A stretch of 34,504 bases of DNA from Methanosarcinales archaeon (lineage in GTDB: Archaea; Halobacteriota; Methanosarcinia; Methanosarcinales; Methanogasteraceae). Position 1 is the stretch's first letter. Every line of letters starts with the position of its first letter. The stretch spans positions 1 through 34,504 of the forward strand of contig RXIK01000117.1 in assembly GCA_004211975.1 (NCBI GenBank), written 5' to 3'. A program made the translations under genes and the position numbers. Below, in pieces: positions 25,460 to 34,504 of this stretch. The notes under the pieces are model-generated. The model had not been told where the DNA came from. It ran no database searches and was given only the letters and a program-made list of their open reading frames with translations.

Positions 25460-25704
25460 GAGACTTTTTAATTTGTTCTGGTCGGTTGAACAACATGATG
25501 CCAATCCTGCAAACAGTGGCAGGATATGACTTCCGAATCAGTGAAATCAGTGTTTATCTGTGGCAAATAAAACTTTTAGCCACAGATTAACACTGATTTC
25601 ACAGATTAACGATATAAATGACTTTTCAGATTGCTAGCGCTCAATTTTATCAGTTTTGCTTACACAAGACAACCCAGGGTAACCAGAAAATAATAAAAAG
25701 TCTC
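25460..25704 (+). mobile_element. MITE-like element, copy A (245 bp, complete)
   Basis: The element begins GAGACTTTTTAATTTGTTCT and ends in the reverse complement of GAGACTTTTTATTATTTTCT, giving terminal inverted repeats that match at about 20 of 23 bases. It is flanked by an exact 8-bp direct repeat GGAATTGA. The interior holds a hairpin (CTGTGGC...GCCACAG) and the phrase AACACTGATTTCACAGATTA, but no transposase gene. It is therefore non-autonomous. Copies B (28174-28419) and C (from 34344) are about 90% or more identical by eye. Copy A lies between bud32 and the winged-helix gene. Confidence 0.88.
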
Positions 25705-28165: not shown

Positions 28166-28173
28166 CAAAATCT
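28166..28173. repeat. 8-bp target-site duplication, left of MITE copy B
   Basis: CAAAATCT here is matched by CAAAATCC at 28420-28427, seven of eight identical, on the two sides of copy B. Confidence 0.65.
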
Positions 28174-28419
28174 GAGACTTTTTAATTTGTTCTGGTTGGT
28201 TGAACAACATGATGCCAATCCTGCAAAAAGTGGCAGGATATGACTTCCGAAATCAGTGAAATCAGTGTTAATCTGTGGCAAATAAAACTTTTAGCCACAG
28301 ATGAACGCTGATTTCACAGATTAACGATATAAATGACTTTTCAGATCGATAGCGCTCAATTTTATCAGTTGTGCTTACACAAGACAACCCCTGGTAACCA
28401 GAAAATAATAAAAAGTCTC
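28174..28419 (+). mobile_element. MITE-like element, copy B (246 bp, complete)
   Basis: It has the same terminal inverted repeats and interior as copy A (GAGACTTTTTAATTTGTTCT at the left, AATAATAAAAAGTCTC at the right), one base longer. It has a 7-of-8 flanking duplication, so the insertion is older or one flank has mutated. It lies just after the NapH-like gene. No coding sequence is inside. Confidence 0.86.
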
Positions 28420-28858: not shown

Positions 28859-29059
28859 TCAATCACCATCATCAAAGATGAACAGCTCCTCAATCGTCGT
28901 CTCCAGAACCTTTGCAACATCATGAGCCAGTTTGAGCGACGGATTGTACTTTCCCTTCTCAAGAAACACAATTGTCTCCCGTCTCACCCCGACCTTCTTT
29001 GCGAGCTCTTCCTGCGTCAGATTATACCGTGCTCGCAGCTCCTTGATTCTGGTGTTCAC
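28859..29059 (-). CDS. XRE-family helix-turn-helix regulator (YozG-like)
   Basis: This is a 66-residue single-domain regulator: [60 protein letters not shown], a textbook short XRE fold like YozG. It starts at a GTG whose bases overlap the stop of the DUF2178 gene upstream, so it is the last gene of the array. It is the natural candidate for controlling the array promoter. A truncated relative occurs inside the array at 30427-30525. Confidence 0.88.
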
Positions 29060-29460
29060 CGGGCGTCGCCCCTCCGATTATAATACCACGTGAGCATGAT
29101 CCACGACCCCATACCAACAAGGAAGAGCTTGGGCGAAACAATCCTATAATCAAGATTTAGTCTTCCGAACATGGATATTAATTGAACGAGAGACAGGGTC
29201 ACAAGCAGAATCAAGAACGCATGATAACCTGCCTTCTCCTTGATTCTATTAGACCGTTCGTCCTGTATCAGGTCATCTTTTGGTCTTGCTGCTGTGATGG
29301 TAGCTATGGTGATTGCACCAACCCCCATGATGATCATGGCAAAACCAATCCCCGGATAGGTGGAACCGGGAAGAAAACTCATCATAAGAATACCGGTGAT
29401 TATTAATAGAACAGCAATACCGATGAAACGCAGGATATATTTGTCACTTCTGAATTTCAT
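29056..29460 (-). CDS. DUF2178-type membrane protein, unit 1 (subtype A)
   Basis: This 134-residue membrane protein has four predicted helices in two pairs. The pairs are separated by a conserved cytoplasmic segment, [19 protein letters not shown], which carries the DER motif (67-69). The C-terminus is [10 protein letters not shown]. It belongs to the DUF2178-like small membrane protein family. I chose the ATG at 29460, whose bases overlap the stop of unit 2 (TGATG). It closely matches unit 4 (30522-30926), sharing for example SMFGRLNL and [10 protein letters not shown]. Function unknown. Confidence 0.8.
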
Positions 29461-29867
29461 CAAACCACATCCCCCTTCCTGCTGTAGTGCCACCTGAAAA
29501 CGCTCCACGAAATCGTTCCGACAACCATCGCCGCATAGTACAGATCCACAAGTTCGATTCCGATCTGCCATGCCCGATCCGACCAAAACAGGACGGTTAT
29601 CGATACCAGAACCAGCCAGAACGCAGAGTTGCCTGCTTTTTCGTTGACTCTCGTGACCCGCTCGTCTGCCACGAGTTCTGTTTCCGGCTTTGTTGCGGCG
29701 TGTAACAATATAGCAAACATAAGCAGCCCGGCAACGATCAAAACCAGACTAAGGAAGACCTGCGCTCCGGAAGTCATCCCTAAGGGCATTATGGCAATAA
29801 CCAGCACAATCACAATCAGAACGACCCGTATAAACGACAGAATCTTCTTGTTTGCCATTATACTCAT
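29460..29867 (-). CDS. DUF2178-type membrane protein, unit 2 (subtype B)
   Basis: This 135-residue protein has four helices and the central motif LVADERVTRVNEKAGNSAFW. The C-terminus FRWHYSRKGDVV matches the array consensus. Subtype B is defined by VADERVTR and by FWSDRAWQIGIELVDLYYA after the motif. It starts directly at the stop of the small ORF upstream (TGA then ATG) and overlaps unit 1 by TGATG. Function unknown. Confidence 0.78.
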   Translation of the reverse strand: MSIMANKKILSFIRVVLIVIVLVIAIMPLGMTSGAQVFLSLVLIVAGLLMFAILLHAATKPETELVADERVTRVNEKAGNSAFWLVLVSITVLFWSDRAWQIGIELVDLYYAAMVVGTISWSVFRWHYSRKGDVV

Positions 29868-30008
29868 TCATACATCCCCTGTTAGATAGAAGCAATCAAC
29901 CCCCAAAACACTGCCAGATAGCAGGAACCAGTGCAGACTCATCGCTCCTACAGCTGTTTTTGCCATTCTTGACAGGCGTTCACTTTTTCCATGATCGGTG
30001 CCCCTCAT
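29868..30008 (-). CDS. Possible 46-residue ORF between DUF2178 units 2 and 3
   Basis: The ATG overlaps the unit 3 stop by ATGA and its stop abuts the unit 2 start, so it fills the gap exactly. The product begins MRGTDHGKSERLSRMAKTAV, then has a hydrophobic stretch (AMSLHWFLLSGSVLGV). It may be a small membrane peptide, or decayed sequence kept open by chance. I see no homology to its neighbours. Confidence 0.35.
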   Translation of the reverse strand: MRGTDHGKSERLSRMAKTAVGAMSLHWFLLSGSVLGVDCFYLTGDV

Positions 30009-30391
30009 ACCACCTCACCCATCCTTCTGTAGTACCAGAAAGATATGCCATAAGAAAAGATTACAACGGAGAGGGTTGCATAGTATAAACTACTAAGTTC
30101 AAGGTCCAATGACCAGATTTTATCCACCCAGAATAGTACTGTTACGGATAACAAAACCATCACGAGCGCGTTCAAACTGGCTTTTCCTTTGATCTTCGTA
30201 ACCCTTTCATCCACCACAAATTCAGTTCTTCGTTTTGATGTTGCAGCAGATAACGCTATGATGACCGCCATAAATACCCCACCACAAAACAGTGCTCCAT
30301 AATATATCCGGAACTGGAACGCAAGCACACCCAATAAAATCGACCCCAGACATATAGTGAGCAAAATCTTTTTGTTTGTTCTTATTTTCAT
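30005..30391 (-). CDS. DUF2178-type membrane protein, unit 3 (subtype B)
   Basis: This 128-residue protein starts MKIRTNKKILLTICLGSILLG. It has four helices with the central motif FVVDERVTKIKGKASLNAL and FWVDKIWSLDLELSSLYYA after it. The KIWSLDLEL block is shared with unit 5 (KIWSLNLELEDMYW). The C-terminus is FWYYRRMGEVV. The ATG at 30391 follows the hybrid HTH/lipoprotein scar by 35 bp. Function unknown. Confidence 0.78.
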   Translation of the reverse strand: MKIRTNKKILLTICLGSILLGVLAFQFRIYYGALFCGGVFMAVIIALSAATSKRRTEFVVDERVTKIKGKASLNALVMVLLSVTVLFWVDKIWSLDLELSSLYYATLSVVIFSYGISFWYYRRMGEVV

Positions 30392-30426
30392 TTACATCGC
30401 CCGCGTTCCCAGATTAAAACACGAAG

Positions 30427-30525
30427 TCACACAATCGACTCCGCTGCTCTTATCAGCTTGTCCTTCTCAAGTTCCTCCTGAGTCCGGCTGTATCGCGCCC
30501 GCAGTTCCTCGATTCTGGTTTTCAC
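30427..30525 (-). pseudogene. Hybrid relic: HTH N-terminus fused to a LolA-like protein tail
   Basis: This 32-codon ORF begins with a GTG overlapping the unit 4 stop, exactly as the intact HTH does after unit 1. Its first half (MKTRIEELRARYSRTQEEL) matches the intact regulator [19 protein letters not shown]. Its second half (EKDKLIRAAESIV, then stop) matches the last residues of the lipoprotein at 32720 (EKGELVKVAESLV, then stop), with similar DNA across the stop. A deletion thus joined the start of one HTH gene to the end of another lipoprotein gene. Confidence 0.75.
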
Positions 30526-30926
30526 ACGATATCCTCCCTTCGATTATAATACCATCTGAGTATAACAAACGAAAGCATTCCAACAAAGAAAATATCAGGC
30601 GAAACGCTCTTATAGCTAAGATTTAATCTCCCAAACATAGCTATTGATTGAACAAGAGCCATGGTCCCAAGCAGAATCCAGAACGCATGATAACCTGCCT
30701 TTTCCTTAATTCTCTCAGACCTTTCATCCTGTATCATATCTTCTTTAGGTCTTGTTGCTGCACCGATTGCCATGACGATCGCAATAATCCCCACGATGAT
30801 CAGGACAGAACCGATCCCGAAATAGGTGGGACCGGGAAGAAAACTCATCATGAGGATGCCGGCGAGGATCCATAGAACAGCAATGCCTGAAAAACGCAGG
30901 ATATCTTTATCTTTTCTTATTTTCAT
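30522..30926 (-). CDS. DUF2178-type membrane protein, unit 4 (subtype A)
   Basis: This 134-residue paralogue of unit 1 starts MKIRKDKDILRFSGIAVLWIL, has the motif [20 protein letters not shown] and the following block SIAMFGRLNLSYKSVSP. The C-terminus is LRWYYNRREDIV. I chose the ATG at 30926, which overlaps the unit 5 stop by ATGA. An upstream in-frame ATG would overlap more. The high similarity to unit 1 and the position before an HTH start support block duplication. Function unknown. Confidence 0.8.
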   Translation of the reverse strand: MKIRKDKDILRFSGIAVLWILAGILMMSFLPGPTYFGIGSVLIIVGIIAIVMAIGAATRPKEDMIQDERSERIKEKAGYHAFWILLGTMALVQSIAMFGRLNLSYKSVSPDIFFVGMLSFVILRWYYNRREDIV

Positions 30927-31330
30927 ACTACCTCCCCTCTCCTGTTGTAGTACCATCTGAGTATAAGCCAGGAATATGTTCCGGTGAGCAGGGTTGTCCA
31001 GTACATATCCTCAAGTTCGAGGTTTAATGACCAGATTTTATCTGCCCAAAACAGAATCATTACAGCTAACAAGACCAGCAAGCCTGCGGTATAACCTGCT
31101 TTTTCATTGATTCTCGTGACCCTTTCATCTGCTATAAGCTCTGTTTTTGGTTTTGTCGCGGCGTATACCACCATAGCAGACATAAATAGCCAAGCAAAAA
31201 TTAAACTAAATTCTATGAAAAATATGGCTTTGGATTGTGCTTGAAATATCAACATAACTACACCCAACAGAACCGACCCCAGACCAATTCCTGAAATGAG
31301 TAAAATCTTTTTATCAGTTCTTATTTTCAT
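30923..31330 (-). CDS. DUF2178-type membrane protein, unit 5 (subtype B)
   Basis: This 135-residue protein starts MKIRTDKKILLISGIGLGSVLLG. It has four helices with the motif LIADERVTRINEKAGYTAGL and FWADKIWSLNLELEDMYW. The C-terminus is LRWYYNRRGEVV. It overlaps units 4 and 6 by ATGA at both ends. Function unknown. Confidence 0.8.
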   Translation of the reverse strand: MKIRTDKKILLISGIGLGSVLLGVVMLIFQAQSKAIFFIEFSLIFAWLFMSAMVVYAATKPKTELIADERVTRINEKAGYTAGLLVLLAVMILFWADKIWSLNLELEDMYWTTLLTGTYSWLILRWYYNRRGEVV

Positions 31331-31716
31331 ACTACATCACCTTTTTTGTTGCACATCCATTGGGATGCAAGCCACACATACATCCCAACGAAAAATAGCA
31401 ATGCGTATATTTGAGATGGTGACGGCATCCATATTTTATAAAAATAAAGCAAATTGAGGATAATTATCAAGATAATCATTGTGTTAAATGCATGATAACC
31501 TGCTTTTTCTTTGTTTCTTACTGATCGCTCATCTTCAATAAAATCTTCTTTTGACTTTGCAGCATTGTATAATACGCCAAGTGTCAGGATTAATCCTGCA
31601 AGAATCCACCCATACCCTATATCAAAACCAAGCATCAGGATTGCTGAACCCAATGCAATTGATCCCATGCTCAGCATCAAACGATTCCTCACATCTTCAT
31701 CTGTTCTTATTTTCAT
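31327..31716 (-). CDS. DUF2178-type membrane protein, unit 6 (subtype C)
   Basis: This 129-residue protein starts MKIRTDEDVRNRLMLSMGS and has the motif [20 protein letters not shown]. The C-terminus is SQWMCNKKGDVV, close to the array consensus. Its DNA is more A+T-rich than that of units 1-5. It overlaps its neighbours by ATGA. Function unknown. Confidence 0.78.
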   Translation of the reverse strand: MKIRTDEDVRNRLMLSMGSIALGSAILMLGFDIGYGWILAGLILTLGVLYNAAKSKEDFIEDERSVRNKEKAGYHAFNTMIILIIILNLLYFYKIWMPSPSQIYALLFFVGMYVWLASQWMCNKKGDVV

Positions 31717-32675
31717 CCCACATCACCTTTTTTCACAATCACTTTTTCTTCTACCATTGGATGTTGGATTCTTTGAGACATCTCGTAGGTGGTATTTGCG
31801 CGTTTTAGCAGGTCATCTATTTCTTTTTCTGTTATTTCAGGATTCTCAAGTTTTAGTATGATTTCATCACTGACGTTTGCGTAACTCAGCAAAGTTTTCC
31901 TTAAAAATCCTTCTATGGCTGTTGTTGTTGTTGGGGTGAAATCAGAAAAAATACCTTCTTTGGAATAAACCGTAATTCTTCCCGTATCTAAATACTCTTC
32001 GTGAACCACAAAAAATAAGAAGATACTGTCGTCCACCAATGCTTGTTTTGCCGATTCAATATCTCTGTACTCTGTAAAATTACCCCCGCATTCTGCAAAA
32101 TTTTGAGCGGGTTTCAATATATTTGAATCGTCTACAAATCCTATATTTCCAAGATTATCTGGAATTATTAATGATGGACAATTTATTAAAACAATCAGTC
32201 CAGATATAAGAATAAGGATAAAAAAAGCAGAAAATAAAAGCTTATTTTCTTTGACAGTTCTTATGATGTAACCGATCCCTCTCTTGTTATAGCAAGAATT
32301 TAAGATGAAAAGTGAAAACAGTCCTATAAAAATAGTTGCAGAGAGTACATCGCTGGTTTCAAGATTGTATAACCCCTTTTCATTTGCCAATAACATTAGA
32401 CCGACCGACACTAAAATTATCCAAAATGTGGTAGACCCTGCTCTTTGATAATTCCTTTCAGTTCTTTCATCTGGCAGAACCTCTGATTCGGATTTATTTG
32501 CTGCATACAATCCATAACCGAGTGTGAACATCCCAAACCAAAAACTACTATCAATAAGAATACATCGGATAATATTTTCACTATTAAGACACCTAATTAT
32601 GCCCTCTGAAATTATCACTATCCCTGCTATCAATGCTCCTACAACAAGTGCATCTTTGTTGTTTCTAATTTTCAT
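31713..32675 (-). CDS. DUF2178 unit 7 fused to an ABC-2 permease-like extracellular domain
   Basis: This is a 320-residue protein. Residues 1-140 or so are a DUF2178 unit: MKIRNNKDALVVGALIAG, four helices, central motif VLPDERTERNYQRAGSTTFW, and NSCYNKRGIGYIIRTVKENK at the end. Another helix follows (LLFSAFFILILISGLIVLIN). The next part resembles the external domain of ABC-2 type permeases: NIGFVDDSNILKP, YRDIESAKQALVDDSIFLFFV, then EEYLDTGRITVYSKEG. The permease helices that should follow are missing. I chose the ATG at 32675, since MKIR starts are shared by the units. It may sense or bind an external ligand. Confidence 0.7.
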   Translation of the reverse strand: MKIRNNKDALVVGALIAGIVIISEGIIRCLNSENIIRCILIDSSFWFGMFTLGYGLYAANKSESEVLPDERTERNYQRAGSTTFWIILVSVGLMLLANEKGLYNLETSDVLSATIFIGLFSLFILNSCYNKRGIGYIIRTVKENKLLFSAFFILILISGLIVLINCPSLIIPDNLGNIGFVDDSNILKPAQNFAECGGNFTEYRDIESAKQALVDDSIFLFFVVHEEYLDTGRITVYSKEGIFSDFTPTTTTAIEGFLRKTLLSYANVSDEIILKLENPEITEKEIDDLLKRANTTYEMSQRIQHPMVEEKVIVKKGDVG

Positions 32676-32719
32676 CCAACACCACCACCAACCCTCGCAT
32701 AAATAAAAGAAGTGCAGAG

Positions 32720-33796
32720 TCACACAAGCGACTCTGCTACTTTTACTAACTCACCCTTCTCAATCGCACCTGACAGCGAATAATCGATGCTATCTACGCT
32801 CCACTGAATCGAGTTCCTGCCAAACATTGACGTAAACTTCCCATCTGTGCCGTTGATACTCACAATCTCTGGTTCACCCATCGCAGGTTCCAACTGACCT
32901 GAACCATCGCTGACGCATTCTCTGAGGTGCAATATCCCGGATCCATTTGTGTATTTCAGCGATAGTATCTCCTGCTCGCTGCCATAGATATCGCCAATCA
33001 ACATCACATGGTCGAATTCGTATCCATCCGGCAGGTACGACGGCGTCTTCAGATCAAACGTGAGATTATCTCTCACCTCATCAAGCGTCATCTCCTTGGG
33101 CATCATATCCTCAAACGATGTCTCCACAACCGTGGCACCTTCCGGAATCTCGAATATGAACTCGCTGTCCGGAATTCCGGTGTTAAACGTTATATCCCTG
33201 TATTCCACTTTTACCATGGGATTGTCGTCTGCATCGTACATCTCGGTCCCGAGCAGCATCCAGTTTTCACGGTCGACCCATACGCGTGTCTTTGAGATGA
33301 ATTCACGGTTAGATTCGTTCTTGGGCGTTGCCTCGATCACATACGTGCTCCGTCCACCAACGTCCTCGATGCCTTCGAGGGCTATGTCGGTCTCATTAAG
33401 AATGCCTTTGACGATCTGGGTATAATCCATCCCGGATGGCATATCTTCCGGAAGCGCCATCTTTGTCACCTGATTATCTATAGGATCGTATGTCCAAATC
33501 GTGCTGTTGTTTGTGACCATCACCGTGCCTGCAAGTTCGGCTGGCTCAATGTATTCGAAGCGACTCTTGTCTGGCGGTATCGTTACCATTGTCGCCTGCA
33601 TAGTCATACCTTCTTCACCATACGATGAGGTCATGACCATCGTGGCTGAGAAGTCTGTAATCTCTGCCTGTTTCGTCTCCATCATGGATGCGATCTCGTC
33701 TGCGGACATCTCAGACATCTGATCAACGCATCCTGTGAGCAGGACTGCTGCAAGGACTATTGCGGCTACTGCTATCTGTTTCGTCTGTTTCTTCAT
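32720..33796 (-). CDS. LolA-like lipoprotein with C-terminal DUF4367-like region
   Basis: This 358-residue lipoprotein has the lipobox LLTGC (signal MKKQTKQIAVAAIVLAAVLL, Cys at residue 23). The middle resembles LolA/outer-membrane lipoprotein-sorting folds (ITDFSATMVMTSSYGEEGMTM, then TPKNESNREFISKTRVWVDRENWM). The C-terminal 130 residues or so (DLKTPSYLPDGYEFDH onwards) resemble DUF4367. It starts the array: GGAGGATG precedes the ATG, and a TATA box and nested palindrome lie upstream. The product likely sits outside the membrane. A role as sensor or lipid-binding partner of the DUF2178 proteins is inferred from context. Confidence 0.78.
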   Translation of the reverse strand: MKKQTKQIAVAAIVLAAVLLTGCVDQMSEMSADEIASMMETKQAEITDFSATMVMTSSYGEEGMTMQATMVTIPPDKSRFEYIEPAELAGTVMVTNNSTIWTYDPIDNQVTKMALPEDMPSGMDYTQIVKGILNETDIALEGIEDVGGRSTYVIEATPKNESNREFISKTRVWVDRENWMLLGTEMYDADDNPMVKVEYRDITFNTGIPDSEFIFEIPEGATVVETSFEDMMPKEMTLDEVRDNLTFDLKTPSYLPDGYEFDHVMLIGDIYGSEQEILSLKYTNGSGILHLRECVSDGSGQLEPAMGEPEIVSINGTDGKFTSMFGRNSIQWSVDSIDYSLSGAIEKGELVKVAESLV

Positions 33797-34211: not shown

Positions 34212-34343
34212 ATGGCTGTATTTATTGATACCGGAACATTCATGGCATACAGGAATAAAAAGACGTACACCATAGCGAGGCGGATTGCCTGTTACGACGC
34301 GCCCTGCAAGGGGAGTTTGGCACCATATTCACTACCGATTTCA
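34212..34343 (+). pseudogene. VapC-like PIN-domain toxin gene, frameshifted and interrupted by MITE copy C
   Basis: The ATG at 34212 opens a typical VapC start, MAVFIDTGTFMAYRNKK, with the first PIN aspartate at residue 6. The frame then breaks near 34266: the matching continuation HHSEADCLLRRALQGEFGTIFTTDF is read in another frame from 34268, equivalent to losing one base. After TTDF the MITE-like element begins (34344), removing the rest of the domain. The gene was thus hit at least twice. Confidence 0.75.
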
Positions 34344-34504
34344 GAGACTTTTTAATTTGTTCTGGTCGGTTGAACAACATGATGTCAATCCTGCAAACAG
34401 TGGCATGATCTGACTTCCTAAATCAGTGGAATCAGCGTTCATCTGTGGCAAATAAAACTTTTAGCCACAGATTAACACTGATTTCACAGATTAACGATAT
34501 AAAT
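34344..34504 (+). mobile_element. MITE-like element, copy C (truncated by the window end)
   Basis: It begins GAGACTTTTTAATTTGTTCT like copies A and B and runs for 161 bases to the end of the window, so its right end and target duplication cannot be seen. The eight bases before it are CGATTTCA. It lies inside the PIN-domain coding sequence. Confidence 0.85.

Follow-up and report, generated by a model that had tools for sequence, protein, structure and literature searches.

Chimeric pseudogenes and deletion scars between neighbouring genes are recognised by an in-frame fusion of the head of one gene to the tail of another, a joint at short homology and signs of decay. The 34,504-nt stretch of DNA analysed here (the window) has, at 30427-30525 of its minus strand, an open reading frame (ORF) that shares these features, but what is fused in it is the gene that closes one module and the gene that opens the next; duplication alone accounts for such an order. 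A second described type comprises the XRE (HTH_3) regulators found downstream of DUF2178 membrane-protein genes, an operon family in which up to ten units are closed by one XRE regulator; a literature search under the term DUF2178 found no paper. By Pfam, the intact terminal gene and the units of the window belong here, whereas the chimeric ORF has no HTH match and retains only about 19-20 regulator codons. Thirdly, tandem arrays such as yeast CUP1 can arise from one-copy strains through unequal joining with little homology or none, as set out in PMC4232551. The locus resembles the CUP1 arrays, as described there, in having a join point attributable to unequal non-homologous recombination, and differs from them in that it is an old, diverged archaeal operon made up of different genes, has two modules only and has a joint that is common to different genera. 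A joint of two arrays is ordinary in kind, and this one is unusually informative because three genera share it. On balance, we consider it rather probable that the ORF is the joint of two tandem operon copies, that it was exchanged between genera and that it is now a relic.

All genes of the array are read from the minus strand, in the order lipoprotein, A, B, C, D, joint, E, a remnant of another gene, F, G and HTH. The array is headed by an intact lipoprotein gene (32720-33796; LolA_like, E = 2.5e-16; DUF4367, E = 9e-8) and closed by an intact XRE regulator gene (28859-29059; HTH_3, E = 4.6e-16). Unit A (31713-32675, 320 residues) consists of a DUF2178-like N-terminal part, with a weak Pfam match, and a C-terminal extension; the other units are DUF2178 by Pfam, namely, B (31327-31716, also by class membership), C (30923-31330), D (30522-30926, the terminal unit of module 1), E (30005-30391, the first unit of module 2, which comes after the joint as the first unit comes after the lipoprotein gene), F (29460-29867) and G (29056-29463, the terminal unit of module 2, also by class and DNA tree). 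The block C-D-HTH head is collinear with F-G-HTH at a constant offset of about 1.46 kb (1463 and 1466 nt), and the self-alignment (739 nt at 73%) ends at the joint base, where a 46-nt lipoprotein match starts; between D and G, 67% of residues and 77% of nucleotides are identical. The sequence from the joint to the first unit resembles the DNA that follows the lipoprotein gene in a related genome, G006 (73% over query positions 91-182), and the homology to the lipoprotein ends of other genomes extends into the first unit. The collinear block expected of a tandem joint is present, but module 2 lacks counterparts of A and B, and E and F fall into separate classes beside the C class, indicating that the modules have been remodelled. 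The earlier note had taken the array for two modules joined by a deletion: the repeat of C-D-HTH head in F-G-HTH supports the two modules, while the deletion is dispensable, since one tandem join gives the same order.

The chimeric ORF starts with GTG and encodes 32 residues. Its first 60 nt or so, together with DNA upstream of the start, align without gaps over 98 nt with the region of the XRE gene, and the ORF overlaps the stop of the preceding DUF2178 unit by 4 nt (30522-30525) exactly as the intact XRE gene does (29056-29059). From about nt 55, the ORF follows the last codons, the stop and the 3' flank of the lipoprotein gene: 30415-30466 and 32708-32759 agree at 35 of 52 nt, no other place in the window, on either strand, exceeds 26 of 52, and similar ends occur in other genomes. 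The lipoprotein side has a local score of 22, and none of 2000 dinucleotide shuffles scored above 16. A repeat finder returned the two halves independently of each other, the HTH half as 28997-29296/30463-30762 (76%, 300 nt) and the lipoprotein half as 30425-30470/32718-32763 (78%, 46 nt). Genome searches with a query spanning the joint likewise placed the halves at different sites: D-HTH junctions were hit by query nt 1 to 91-100 and lipoprotein ends by nt 90/91 to 136-182; G006 has two separate matches, one of 100 nt at 85% and one of 98 nt at 73%, and G015 gave a match of 84% over 56 nt (E = 1e-10). These alignments bear out the proposal in the earlier note that the start of the regulator at 28859-29059 was fused in frame to the end of the lipoprotein gene at 32720, including the DNA around its stop, both halves being significant and each being found separately. 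An HTH gene with an internal loss only, conceivable because TTGAGAAGGG also occurs further down the HTH gene (28859-29059), is ruled out by the downstream match to lipoprotein ends.

Aligning the ORF with both parents at DNA level maps the junction to 30460-30471, where the HTH-side and lipoprotein-side matches overlap by 8-12 nt in a zone that fits both parents, a microhomology joint at CTTGAGAAGGAC (minus strand). Comparison by blocks with nine intact HTH genes and with the lipoprotein ends of relatives showed that nt 1-54 of the ORF follow the HTH gene, nt 55-66 fit both and later nucleotides follow the lipoprotein gene, alike in all three genomes that carry the joint. The repeats reported by the finder overlap by 8 nt (30463-30470), and the base corresponding to 30470 is where the two self-alignments meet. 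In other genomes, the longer first-half matches stop at query nt 91-100 and the lipoprotein matches begin at nt 90-91, with the exception of three weaker first-half matches (G007, G012 and G009) that continue to nt 132. The head of the last gene of an array, the HTH gene, is in this way fused to the tail of the first, the lipoprotein gene, as the joint of a tandem duplication would be.

Single arrays are found among the relatives. Five arrays of the family are complete and free of the joint (G009, G006, G002, G014 and G013), a sixth (G016) is cut only at the lipoprotein start, and every array of a non-carrier in the family that is readable from lipoprotein to regulator is a single one; in G004 the contig breaks off within D, and this genome was not counted for the joint. 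An array without the joint is also present in another family, in the Methanosarcinaceae metagenome-assembled genome (MAG) CSMAG_2122 (locus L128). Two of the genomes with single arrays, G006 and G014, share upstream flanks with the carrier G012. In a DNA tree, each single array ends in a terminal unit of one type, the D type in G006 and G014 and the G type in G009, G016 and G013 (G-type clade, 100/98), and a third type, grouped with G002, takes the last place in G007 and G012. The carriers have a D-type unit before the joint and another type at the end, which suggests either a fusion of two different arrays or a later replacement. D and G differ by 23% in DNA within the one array, whereas D is about 90% identical to its counterpart in another genus; the modules were therefore either non-identical at the time of spread or replaced later.

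The origin of the joint can be explained by two alternative rationales: (i) two arrays would have been joined by a single illegitimate event at short homology (about CTTGAGAAGGA), with the breakpoint at codon ~19 in the regulator gene of one and at codon ~344 (of 358) in the lipoprotein gene of the other, and (ii) a whole module would have been duplicated in tandem, after which a deletion running from the first HTH gene into the second lipoprotein gene, with the loss of more than 1 kb, left the fusion. In its simplest form, the first is one unequal tandem duplication or array fusion. If the interval bounded by the lipoprotein tail and the HTH head is duplicated, the order becomes lipoprotein-units-(HTH head/lipoprotein tail)-units-HTH, so one event is enough, and neither a complete second lipoprotein gene nor a later deletion would be needed. 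The join would have made the second module dependent on the promoter that serves the first lipoprotein gene, and left the terminal regulator alone intact; units would later have been gained, lost and exchanged by recombination, a piece with C, D and the joint would have moved between genera of the ANME-2 family, and the chimeric ORF would have stayed behind as a relic that kept its coupled start codon and has no function.

The second rationale leads to an identical end product with two illegitimate events in place of one, and we regard it as credible, though unlikely, because deletions are common in these arrays, a fact that counts against a preference for one step. Deletion remnants are indeed seen elsewhere, at 29868-30008 in the window and as a unit remnant before the HTH gene in G032. 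Lipoprotein genes also occur after an HTH gene (G033, G076 and G070, family f5 of the order), and complete lipoprotein genes stand in tandem in G009 and G010; in the former three, however, no units directly follow the downstream lipoprotein gene, and in the latter two the duplicates are directly adjacent to each other, not placed after HTH. The intermediate with an undeleted second module, which the earlier note expected in related genomes, was sought in 38 loci picked from the best search matches (one of these searches matched 94 of 185 genomes), with array runs split at gaps of at least 500 nt, whereby the arrays of the window and of G182 were divided. These 38 selected loci hold 26 arrays with at least two units and a complete terminal HTH gene; a truncated HTH gene lies inside three of them (window, G007 and G012), and a complete internal HTH gene, or HTH plus lipoprotein followed by further units, in none of the 26. 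A complete second lipoprotein gene between units 3 and 4 of that note's numbering, as proposed there, is not needed to account for the gene order, and the single join at short homology remains the origin that we favour.

The example of deletion next to the joint is a minus-strand ORF of 46 residues at 29868-30008, which aligns with the head of a small gene whose frame, of about 117 codons, remains open in G007 and G012. The remnant ends at the motif GGNGAYGT, which also closes the units, and the simplest reading is an internal deletion via this repeated motif.

The joint is neither local nor recent, as it is present in two other genera. The full 183-nt joint query was matched end to end in 3 of 185 genomes of the order, namely, the window genome, G007 (95%) and G012 (89%), which represent three genera of one family (17 genomes sampled) that we take to be the ANME-2c group. 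The DNA around the joint is 89-95% identical among the carriers. At fourfold sites, the identity of the window to G007 and G012, respectively, is 87 and 89% for C and 88 and 92% for D; for the lipoprotein gene it is 61 and 56%, for E 50 and 52% and for G 68 and 73%. The core genes give 64 and 63% (mtrH) and 45 and 43% (eIF2a), a yardstick of two genes only, with three fragmented metagenome genomes as carriers. The piece with C, D and the joint is thus much closer than the core genes and than the remaining array, and downstream of the joint the units of the three carriers are strongly different, as in mosaic modules. Such illegitimate joins are rare, and one that lies at an identical base in three genera is unlikely to have arisen twice, which indicates common descent of this DNA even between distant core genomes, and since silent divergence is this low, loss in other lineages alone would be insufficient. 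The C-D-joint segment was probably exchanged between genera, judging from these identities, and the exchange may have taken place by recombination inside the arrays. Mis-binning is unlikely for two of the carriers, since the genes upstream of the array site in G012 are common to G006, G008, G010 and G014 of the same genus and the window contig carries core genes; among the loci compared, the flank in G007 matched the downstream region of G012 only. A pattern scan of IMG/VR across the joint gave no match, and neither did a search of plasmid proteins with unit D.

The chimeric ORF itself is probably a non-functional relic that is not under selection. The alternative is that it encodes a working small protein, for instance a truncated regulator or a coupled leader peptide, that is maintained by selection. 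This would agree with the start codon and the 4-nt coupling to unit D being kept in three genera and with the frame being open in all three carriers. Several observations make it very improbable: (i) no HTH family in Pfam or NCBIfam matches the ORF, only residues 1-27 of 66 of a single-sequence HTH model find a counterpart, the recognition part is absent and a complete helix-turn-helix domain is not present; (ii) within the first 30 codons, five codons differ between the window and G007, and all five differences change the residue; (iii) the tails in two of the three carriers (G007 and G012) are shifted out of the lipoprotein frame. Over the same first 30 codons, the window and G012 show seven nucleotide differences in synonymous and eight in non-synonymous codons, and G007 and G012 seven of each, giving no sign of purifying selection in a comparison whose power is low with three sequences. 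Part of the ORF in G012 resembles the HTH gene of G012 itself; conversion from that gene is suspected and would in part explain the differences between the window and G012. The terminal HTH gene is 92-100% identical in protein with 50-77% identity at fourfold sites, and this conservation despite silent divergence points to selection on the terminal regulator. A working regulator was rejected on these grounds.

An assembly chimera, to which a genome in 249 contigs might be prone, or a chance similarity can be dismissed, as the same joint was assembled in the two other carriers (G007, AUK006; G012, UBA203) and the lipoprotein-side score lies far above the shuffles.

As for the role of the array, its domain types and arrangement would be consistent with an envelope operon under autoregulation by its XRE protein; the LolA/RseB-like lipoprotein and the four-helix membrane units might then sense or buffer envelope stress. 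A structural model of the DUF2178 unit (unit D with 33 relatives) shows four helices at moderate quality (pLDDT 70.6, pTM 0.40), and a fold search of the PDB with it returned nothing at E <= 0.001. PADLOC gave generic XRE-type matches for the HTH gene and one weak match for unit F, and assigned no defence system. There is perhaps an even chance that, in ANME archaea, the lipoprotein-DUF2178-HTH arrays act as hot spots of recombination, with membrane-protein units shuffled between genera and families as at a diversifying surface or immunity locus, the joint being a heritable tag of this process. The joint can serve as a natural tag for DNA exchange among genera of methane-oxidising archaea and, as gene exchange is hard to measure in uncultured ANME archaea, as a direct handle on recombination between genera; it also points to a variable family of DUF2178-XRE operons.

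Several further observations were made in the course of these comparisons. Unit B (with A, 31327-32675 in the window; 5347-7099 in L128) is 88% identical in protein to its counterpart in the Methanosarcinaceae MAG CSMAG_2122, and A is 67% identical over 323 residues, a likeness that suggests exchange between families. A lipoprotein end 63% identical to that of the window is present at 51-440 of L140, a contig filed under a Zixiibacteriota MAG that is likely mis-binned ANME DNA. In three loci of family f5 (L055, L162 and L165), the lipoprotein gene is located downstream of HTH, not upstream of the units, and in L165 its frame ends after query residue ~225, the C-terminal DUF4367 part being missing. 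The two adjacent lipoprotein genes in G009 (L037, 10355-11428) include a second copy with an in-frame TAG at about codon 253, a site that is an invariant serine in close homologues. The array of ANME-2 cluster archaeon HR1 (G032; L041, 7529-8889) retains, besides the lipoprotein gene and an intact HTH gene, a short piece from the C-terminal end of a unit. One TGA was counted in the eIF2a match of 8 of the 17 family genomes (G006, G007, G008, G010, G012, G013, G014 and G016), and this may simply be the stop codon of the gene, close to where the alignment ends. Finally, a dispersed repeat of about 163 nt occurs in the window at 28171-28334, 34341-34504 and 25460-25619; two copies, 93% alike and in direct orientation, flank the array, and the genome holds at least 40 near-full-length matches (40 of 176 candidates scored).
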